DNA from: Sphingobacterium corticibacter
Lineage (GTDB): Bacteria > Bacteroidota > Bacteroidia > Sphingobacteriales > Sphingobacteriaceae
Length of the DNA stretch: 64,000 nucleotides
Assembly (NCBI RefSeq): GCF_003076635.1
Contig: NZ_QDKG01000001.1
Location: 434,001 to 498,000, forward strand
Direction: 5' to 3'
Position 1 is the stretch's first letter. The number at the start of each line of letters is the position of its first letter. The notes beneath the pieces are model-generated. The model saw only the letters and a program-made list of their open reading frames with translations. It ran no database searches and was not told the origin of the DNA. This document shows, piece after piece, positions 14,780 through 16,720 of this stretch. A program made the position numbers and the translations under genes.

Positions 14780-15328
14780 TCACAGGGGTTTAGCAGATAA
14801 TCCTAATTTAATTAAAGCGAATACAGCGTAGTTAAGCATATCTTGATAATTGGCTTGCAGACCTTCCGAGACCAAAGTTTGTCCGTTGTTATCTTCAATT
14901 TGCTTGACACGATGTAGTTTCGTGAGGATCAAGTCGGTCAAGGATGAGATGCGCATATCGCGCCATGCTTCGCCGTAATCGTGGTTTTTGGCCAACATGA
15001 GTTCTCGCGTTTCTCGAATTTTTTCGTCATAACGATTTTCTGTTTCTTTGGTTTCGAGATCCAGATTACCATCGATACCAAGATCCAGCTGAATCATAGC
15101 AATCACGCAATAATTTACAATACCGATGTATTCATCTATCACACCTTCGCCCACTTTTGAAACTTTTTTTTCTTCTAGCGTCCGAATACGTTGCGCTTTG
15201 ATAAAAATCTGATCGGTAATAGAGGTGGGGCGCATGACTCGCCACGAGGTGCCATAGTCAATTGTTTTTTTAATAAATAAGGTGCGGCAATGATCTATTA
15301 TCTGATTGTATTCGGTGCTTGTATCCAT
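14780..15328 (-). CDS. DUF1599 (nucleotide-modification-associated domain 1) protein, two internal repeats
   Basis: 182 residues, all-helical, cytoplasmic. The protein is two copies of one unit. DYGTSWRVMR (24-33) matches DYGEAWRDMR (117-126), and DEYIGIVNYCVIAMIQL (65-81) matches ANYQDMLNYAVFALIKL (159-175), an offset of about 93 residues. DUF1599 was linked by comparative genomics to nucleotide or DNA modification, but no biochemical function is established. It heads a minus-strand cluster with the BT_3928 protein and shikimate kinase; the first two often occur together in Bacteroidota, from memory of the phylum. Confidence 0.82.
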   Translation of the reverse strand: MDTSTEYNQIIDHCRTLFIKKTIDYGTSWRVMRPTSITDQIFIKAQRIRTLEEKKVSKVGEGVIDEYIGIVNYCVIAMIQLDLGIDGNLDLETKETENRYDEKIRETRELMLAKNHDYGEAWRDMRISSLTDLILTKLHRVKQIEDNNGQTLVSEGLQANYQDMLNYAVFALIKLGLSAKPL

Positions 15329-15561: not shown

Positions 15562-16359
15562 ATGAATATACAAAAGCCGGAGATCCGTGAAGTAGAAATC
15601 ATCCGCTATGTGATGCCATTTCGGGAAGGTGGATCGCTACCTGCCTTGGTTGATGCAGACGATGATTTTAGTTACGTTATTAAATTTCGAGGAGCTGGAC
15701 AAGGTAAGCGCGTGTTGGTGGCCGAACTTATTGTCGGCGAGATGGCACGCTGGCTCGGATTACGGATGCCCGAAATGGTGTTCGCAGATTTGCATGAAGC
15801 TTTCGGCCGAACCGAGCCTGACGAAGAAATTCAGGATCTTTTAAAATTTAGCGTTGGCAAAAACTTAGGCGTTCATTATCTGAATGGTGCCATCACATTT
15901 GATCCTAACGTGGAGCAAATCTCGGAAGAGGAAGCTTCGAAAATTGTGTGGCTTGATGCATTGACTATGAATGTCGATCGAACAGTGCGTAATACCAATA
16001 TGCTGATTTGGAACCATGAGCTTTGGCTGATAGACCACGGTGCTTCCTTGTATTTTCACCATAATTGGGAGCATTGGGAAGAGCAAGTAACCAAACCGTT
16101 CGTGCAAATTAAAGATCATGTGTTGCTTCATAAAGCAACTCAAGTGCGTGCGGTGGATCAGCAATTCCGCCATCTTTTTACAGAAGATAATCTGTGGAAA
16201 ATAGTATCTGCCGTGCCGGATGAGTGGTTGGAGGAAGTCGGACGGACAGAAACGGCAGATGAGGCAAGGCAAGTGTATGTGACCTTCTTAGCGCAACGTG
16301 TGCAGCACTCGGATATATTTATAGATCAAATCGAAAAAGCGCGTGAAGGTAGAATATGA
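15562..16359 (+). CDS. HipA-like kinase-fold protein
   Basis: 265 residues with a compact HipA-type kinase fold, without the N-terminal subdomain of true HipA. Likely ATP-binding Lys41 (FSYVIKFRG) and catalytic loop Asp139 (MNVDRTVRNTNMLIW, with Asn144 and Asn146). The metal-binding Asp158 is in WLIDHGASL, DHG in place of DFG. All needed residues are visible, so the kinase is probably active. No HipB-like repressor precedes it. Instead it overlaps the following DUF3037 gene by 17 bases, a pairing seen in many bacteria and probably a functional unit. Substrate and role are unknown; relation to HipA toxins is by fold only. Confidence 0.82.
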   Translation: MNIQKPEIREVEIIRYVMPFREGGSLPALVDADDDFSYVIKFRGAGQGKRVLVAELIVGEMARWLGLRMPEMVFADLHEAFGRTEPDEEIQDLLKFSVGKNLGVHYLNGAITFDPNVEQISEEEASKIVWLDALTMNVDRTVRNTNMLIWNHELWLIDHGASLYFHHNWEHWEEQVTKPFVQIKDHVLLHKATQVRAVDQQFRHLFTEDNLWKIVSAVPDEWLEEVGRTETADEARQVYVTFLAQRVQHSDIFIDQIEKAREGRI

Positions 16360-16720
16360 GTACTCCGTAATTCGTTATGTACCGAGGGTAGAGCGCGAAG
16401 AATTTATCAATGTAGGCGTATTACTCTATTGCAAACGGAAACGATATGCTGCACTACGATGGTTGGTAGATGAGGATAGATGTAAATGCCTTTTCGCAAA
16501 TGCTGATTTGATACTCTTAAAAGCTCACCTATCTTCGTTAGAAAAGATTTGCGCAGGTAAAGCTGATGCCGGACAATTAGCGAAACTGGAGCAGGCCGAG
16601 CGTGTTCGCTGGATCACGGCCAATCGCAGTACGTGGATTCAGTGTGCGCCAGTCCACACGGGGTTGTGTACAGATCCAGAATATACATTACAAGAATTAT
16701 TTAATCGATTAATCCTATAA
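16343..16720 (+). CDS. DUF3037 protein, partner of the HipA-like kinase
   Basis: 125 residues with the DUF3037 opening EYSVIRYVPRVEREEFINVGVLLYC, which is nearly diagnostic. It starts at GTG and overlaps the kinase gene by 17 bases, which implies translational coupling; no ATG in frame fits the conserved start. No catalytic motif, signal peptide or membrane segment is seen. The overlap and the recurrent pairing suggest that it binds, is modified by, or restrains the kinase. This is inference; no function is established for the family. Confidence 0.85.
   Translation: MKVEYEYSVIRYVPRVEREEFINVGVLLYCKRKRYAALRWLVDEDRCKCLFANADLILLKAHLSSLEKICAGKADAGQLAKLEQAERVRWITANRSTWIQCAPVHTGLCTDPEYTLQELFNRLIL

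Follow-up and report, generated by a model that had tools for sequence, protein, structure and literature searches.

Pairs of a HipA-related kinase and a DUF3037 protein are known from systems that defend against phages. DS-6, validated by DefensePredictor, joins such a kinase (DS-6A) to a DUF3037/DUF1829 protein (DS-6B); its authors state that it has been renamed HipAD, citing Brenes and Laub 2025, that DS-6A mutated in a predicted catalytic residue loses defence and that AlphaFold3 predicts contact between DS-6A and DS-6B (PMC13092281). For Retron-Sda1, the report describes a kinase needed for defence, with loss of defence on kinase deletion and toxicity on DUF3037 deletion; the retron parts are dispensable, and its authors describe a standalone defence system of kinase toxin and DUF3037 neutraliser (PMC12548924). 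Both families also make up the PADLOC candidate PDC-M66. Here we analysed a 64,000-nucleotide stretch of the Sphingobacterium corticibacter genome (contig NZ_QDKG01000001.1, positions 434,001 to 498,000; hereafter the window) that carries such a pair, a HipA-like kinase gene followed by an overlapping DUF3037 gene. What is new is that the pair belongs to a separate short form, whose partner consists of the DUF3037 domain only and which most of the genomes sampled from its bacterial family carry. In the literature that we found, supplementary files aside, this DUF3037-only form is not described as a class of its own.

An earlier note on this locus had called the pair uncharacterised and without known function, which is wrong for such pairs in general given PDC-M66, DS-6/HipAD and Retron-Sda1. 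Its proposal of a toxin-antitoxin-like module agrees with behaviour published for relatives; the module is not new, however, since that hypothesis was already in print for HipAD and Retron-Sda1. The reading we favour, with a probability of about 0.6, is that this is a relative of HipAD and PDC-M66, short in form and resident on the chromosome, in which the DUF3037 protein holds an active kinase in check until a signal arrives. The first gene would encode an active HipA-like serine/threonine kinase and the second, in an overlapping frame, a small DUF3037 protein that would bind the kinase and keep it inactive, with coupled translation keeping the two in proportion. A signal would then relieve the block, and the freed kinase would phosphorylate a presumed host protein substrate and so stop growth. 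By analogy with its relatives, the 125-amino-acid DUF3037 protein probably acts as the inhibitor. The DUF3037 domain itself may be the kinase-binding part, as short and long partners have no other part in common.

The kinase and its partner

The HipA_2-family kinase gene (15562..16359, forward strand, 265 amino acids, ATG start) and the short-form DUF3037 partner gene (16343..16720, forward strand, 125 amino acids, GTG start), both identified by open reading frame call and Pfam, overlap by 17 nucleotides (16343..16359, forward strand), kinase stop codon included; the earlier note had these coordinates and the GTG start right. The start is forced, because an in-frame TAG lies upstream at 16322-16324 with no ATG, GTG or TTG in between, so that no normal start is available before the GTG at 16343. 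The overlap is not a matter of chance, for it recurs: when the two open reading frames are read from their first start codons, 81 of 84 related loci show them in the same order and overlapping by 11-71 nucleotides; the three exceptions are a contig end (L177) and two loci with first-start overlaps above 200 nucleotides (L209 and L222). The commonest overlap is 23 nucleotides (53 of the 81). Of the start codons, the one closest to the conserved motif is ATG in 61 loci, TTG in 12 and GTG in 1, with the motif not found in 7. The GTG and 17-nucleotide overlap of the window are thus a local deviation.

Pfam HipA_2 (PF20613) matches the window kinase at E 1.1e-18 (67.8 bits) and PADLOC PDC-M66A at E 4.8e-26 (89.6 bits). 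Residues K41, D139, N144 and D158, which the earlier note had seen to be kept, are each present without exception in the 116 short-form kinases compared, that of the window among them. S25 in a GGS(L/M)P loop is equally invariant, and we suggest that it may correspond to the regulated serine in the loop of HipA. The structure model of the kinase is confident (predicted local distance difference test score, pLDDT, 91.9). An intact HipA fold had been claimed, and this stands in broad terms, with Z 12.0 to HipT of Legionella (188 residues, 3.6 Å) and Z 11.4 to HipA of Shewanella (197 residues, 3.9 Å), but the closest solved folds are CtkA (Z 15.0, 211 residues, 3.5 Å), PI4K-II and CotH kinases. 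A search by sequence for a solved relative gave a single Fic match (E 0.058), judged to be chance. NCBIfam has no match for the kinase or the DUF3037 protein, and PHROGs assigns both to families of unknown function.

The likeness to classical HipBA and HipBST is one of kinase fold (Z 11-12), whereas the window kinase has no adjoining HipB or HipS and no HipA_C (PF07804, no match at E up to 1), and its partner lies downstream and belongs to DUF3037. No HipB-like gene adjoins the kinase, in agreement with the earlier note, its surroundings being a DUF1599 gene, the DUF3037 gene and then a hexapeptide-repeat gene; nor is there a HipS-like small antitoxin upstream. Classical HipA (PF07804) has no match anywhere in the same genome (G000).

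The partner is matched by Pfam DUF3037 (PF11236) at E 1.3e-43 and by PADLOC PDC-M66B at E 5.3e-16, over model positions 3-128 of 281, that is, under half of the model. No DNA-binding family was found in it by Pfam. It is modelled as a small alpha/beta domain (pLDDT 94.6), for which Foldseek gave no solved match at E 0.001 or better; the best VIA-align hits (Z 3.3, putative adenylate cyclases, 70-77 residues) were not interpreted. Residues invariant in 78 sequences include R11, P14, R18, E20, F21, N23, G25, R87, R89, W90, R95, S96 and Q100. An Arabidopsis paper naming DUF3037 in RST1/Focadhesin was set aside, as we assume that it very probably concerns a different domain. The earlier note had also suggested looking for fusions of the two families, and none came to light: no open reading frame in two sets (loci L001-L222) matched both query proteins.

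Short and long forms of the pair

In Escherichia phage PhiR5_1 (PV340545.1) two adjacent genes beside cI, overlapping by 4 nucleotides, bear the annotations 'HipA toxin' and 'HipD antitoxin'. Phage and window share the same order, a HipA_2 kinase and then an overlapping DUF3037 gene, and by BLASTP the window kinase and phage HipA have 28% identity over 223 columns (E 6e-14), the window partner and HipD 29% over 120 columns (E 9e-14). The differences are nonetheless considerable. HipD has 275 amino acids and runs about 150 residues past the end of the window protein, the phage pair lies beside cI while the window pair occupies a conserved chromosomal site, Pfam HipA_2 fits the phage kinase at 257.9 bits compared with 67.8 for ours, and the window kinase falls outside the HipAD kinases in the tree. 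HipAD and PDC-M66 partners in general reach about 275-300 amino acids by way of a C-terminal region, DUF1829 in DS-6B and DNA-binding-like in Sda1, that the window partner does not have; in PhiR5_1 HipD, DUF1829 gave no match at E 0.1. PDC-M66 resembles our pair in that both window proteins match its models, and differs in the length of PDC-M66B; here the PADLOC models were applied by themselves and not the PADLOC system rules. The Retron-Sda1 pair likewise unites the same two families, but is retron-associated, and its DUF3037 protein has a C-terminal region that resembles a DNA-binding protein (PMC12548924).

In 296 genomes surveyed across the phylum, DUF3037 matches separated by bits and frame length into two sets. 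The short set, to which the window pair belongs, comprises 48 matches at 126 bits or more in open frames of 131-181 amino acids, and the other set 20 matches at 91 bits or less in frames of 278-385 amino acids, except two (131 and 193). In the short set pairing is obligate, with a kinase directly upstream in 48 of 48 cases, which supports the recurring two-gene module of the earlier note; the other set has one in 16 of 20. Kinase matches without a partner row numbered 13 of 77.

The kinases divide along the same line. In a tree of 42 kinases a single branch (support 94/92, recovered in 95% of 200 bootstrap trees) parts 33 short-form from 8 long-form kinases, phage HipAD included; the long forms are not shown as one clade, falling in two groups from the midpoint, and with long branches the deep order is unsure. 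Mean pairwise identity is 66% among the short-form kinases (116 rows), and 24% between these and six long-form kinases of Bacteroidota. A kinase with a short partner from a Hymenobacter plasmid sits on a very long branch and falls in neither set. There (L244:3177-4393) the very divergent HipA_2 kinase and its 133-amino-acid DUF3037 partner lie between insertion sequences, so that a short partner is here mobile while its kinase belongs to neither group. At one long-form locus (L119:12-953) the pair is adjoined by a pentapeptide-like-repeat protein with a C-terminus that is TIR-like by eye.

Occurrence and descent

Among 201 genomes of the GTDB family of the window, the kinase family was found in 161 and DUF3037 in 161, covering 19 of 25 genera, and 34 of 35 genomes of the genus itself carry both. 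Kinase-first, same-strand neighbours account for at least 137 pairs among the 150 matches listed per family, and of 13 listed kinase rows without a partner row, 12 are in genomes absent from the DUF3037 matches listed. One genome with a normal pair has in addition a second HipA_2 kinase without a DUF3037 partner (G105:C10:37525-38277). The same genomes lack kinase and DUF3037 among the 20 listed of 40 without a match; 15 of these 20 are at or below 2.8 megabases, as are only two of the 161 matching genomes (G024 and G148, 85% and 77% complete). As a control, classical HipA (PF07804) was found in 79 of the 201 genomes and 17 of the 35, with up to four matches per genome.

In five of five genomes examined within the genus, the genes run DUF1599 - kinase - DUF3037 - cysE - cysK. 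In other genera cysE and cysK are still downstream in 2 of 15 loci, the remainder having different neighbours. The sole congener without the pair (G107) has DUF1599 and cysE 0.1-0.2 kilobases apart, and this gap holds no piece of kinase or DUF3037 by tblastn at E up to 10; the joint absence of both genes is most simply a loss. The pair is evidently dispensable in this congener, as would be expected of a decayed or selfish leftover without function. We consider such a leftover highly improbable, as conservation contradicts it: there are no internal stops among the 150 listed rows each for HipA_2 and DUF3037, against 6 of 117 classical HipA rows, and the catalytic residues are invariant.

Kinase identity is 67-74% within Sphingobacterium (the closest named relatives among the best 80 of 595 matches) and 57-63% between genera, and the neighbours cysE and cysK stand at 55-67% and 70-82%. 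A quick tree built from 123 kinase rows, of which 17 had no label, needs 38 changes of family label, with a minimum of 25 and a shuffled mean of 68.9, and thus fits mostly vertical descent with transfer. The genus Sphingobacterium lies apart from the rest of Sphingobacteriaceae.

Conservation resembling that of cysE and cysK, along with a tree that largely clusters by family, would suit a quite different role, that of a non-toxic housekeeping phospho-signalling pair with a metabolic or translation target, in which DUF3037 is activator, adaptor or substrate. The invariant R87, R89, R95, S96 and Q100 could, on this account, bind phosphate or hold a phosphorylation site. We regard it as doubtful, as in the tested relatives the partner neutralises a toxic kinase (PMC12548924), and HipD is annotated as antitoxin. 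The absence of the pair from G107 and from 40 of the 201 family genomes also counts against it, and means that the pair is not generally required.

Genomic setting and mobility

Our view of the neighbourhood comes from named loci, the best 80 of 595 kinase matches, which lean to close relatives. DUF3037 stands at position +1 of the kinase in 79 of the 80, the remaining one being a contig edge, and the next commonest neighbour family occurs in 14. Ten representative neighbours that were scanned comprised a helicase, a NUDIX protein, a squalene/phytoene synthase, a MerR regulator, a topoisomerase, a DNA glycosylase, two response regulators and two without a match. Searched with PADLOC models at E 1e-15, the 15 short-form loci gave 17 families among 138 neighbour proteins (138 of 141 neighbour frames, 3 that overlapped others being left out), and 15 long/other loci gave 192 families among 98 neighbours, led by type I and III restriction. 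This comparison is a contrast and not a rate, since one protein matches many models, and the two sets come from different families of the phylum on contigs of different length. The 15 long/other loci were drawn from the 20 matches and include shorter DUF3037 frames in L236 (193 amino acids) and L239 (131 amino acids).

On mobile elements the short-form kinase is rare: it was found in 5 of 72,556 plasmid records and as one weak partial match in 50,697 phage records, and a search of viral contigs with two exact peptide patterns gave 179 pattern matches with no short-form kinase relative confirmed. DUF3037 alone, at E 0.01, was found in 16 plasmid and 2 phage records, most below 30% identity. Pairs with a short DUF3037 do occur on plasmids (H1, H2, H5 and H21), two from Bacteroidales, one from Streptomyces and, more distantly, one from Hymenobacter. 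A Leptolyngbya boryana plasmid (L243:2739-3411) has a DUF3037 gene, 44% identical to that of the window, overlapping by 23 nucleotides an 88-amino-acid hypothetical gene; with no full kinase, this is possibly a truncated pair. A matching search with a long-form Bacteroidota kinase (L113) was uninformative (8 weak plasmid records, no phage record), and the mobility contrast draws instead on the scan of neighbours and on HipAD. The window pair shows neither a mobile-element nor a defence-island location, although some short-partner relatives are on plasmids.

These data bear on whether the pair is simply an ordinary anti-phage abortive-infection system like HipAD, common in the family, with the short partner sufficient for both sensing and neutralising. 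This would be a statement about role, compatible with the kinase-inhibitor mechanism, and we think it rather unlikely. In its favour, the relatives DS-6 and Retron-Sda1 defend against phages (PMC13092281, PMC12548924), short-DUF3037 pairs are found on the plasmids above, and PDC-M66A fits the window and L139 kinases at about 89 bits and three long-form Bacteroidota kinases at 41-67, HipAD itself being unscored. Set against this are presence in 161 of 201 family genomes, the conserved site in the genus, neighbours poor in defence-model matches, the lack of a confirmed relative in viral contigs by the two peptide patterns, and the scarcity of the kinase among phage and plasmid records. The genomic behaviour of the short form leans away from that of a typical mobile defence system. 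Because PDC-M66A scores these two short-form kinases above the three long-form ones, defence annotation may label a common chromosomal pair as a defence candidate.

Weighing the proposed role

Several points weigh against a resident kinase held in check by its DUF3037 partner. The functional data come from relatives, with a HipAD kinase 28% identical over 223 columns and a partner about twice as long. The inhibitor role is not readable from the DUF3037 structure, as the fold has no solved match. The unpaired kinases of the wider family (13 of 77) indicate that the kinase domain does not always need DUF3037. The plasmid-borne short pairs sit uneasily with chromosomal residence, and the spread of the short form in the phylum sample is patchy, at 48 of 296 genomes. 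Nor is descent fully vertical, as Sphingobacteriaceae alone needs 10 label changes in the quick tree and two actinomycete kinases nest among Bacteroidota ones in the 42-kinase tree. It is also unusual for a toxin-antitoxin module to be so common, chromosomal and mostly present in one copy.

Beyond the inhibited-kinase reading, we tentatively suggest, with somewhat less than even confidence, that in part of Bacteroidota the short form, which also has relatives in Actinomycetota, serves as a resident kinase switch controlling growth rather than as a defence system, and that mobile HipAD may have arisen from or alongside it by adding a C-terminal sensor or DNA-binding region. Were this true, defence annotation tools may be mislabelling the short pair as PDC-M66, and if the short form gives no phage defence, PDC-M66 counts in Bacteroidota may be inflated. 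Our comparison splits what now shares a single label. On one side is a kinase toxin directed against phages, whose DUF3037 partner is long and which often lies on prophages or in defence islands; on the other is a chromosomal pair that is common and has a minimal partner. Should the short form prove to act as toxin and inhibitor, inhibition would lie in DUF3037 by itself, and the tail of HipD would be an addition for sensing or DNA binding. Whichever role holds, the substrate of a kinase found in 161 of 201 sampled family genomes can be sought directly.

Surrounding features of the window

As to a retron beside the pair, the five proteins scanned around the locus by Pfam include no reverse transcriptase. 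Only a transfer RNA reached the Rfam gathering threshold in the window, and a scan for sigma-70-type promoters was uninformative (5 found, 4.6 expected). Downstream of the DUF3037 gene lies the hexapeptide-repeat gene, which resembles serine acetyltransferase by Pfam, followed by a gene labelled cysteine synthase-like by eye. The immediate upstream neighbour of the kinase, the DUF1599 gene (14780-15328, Pfam), is divergent from the pair, and the same Pfam domain ('nucleotide modification associated domain 1') is matched in two stretches of it.
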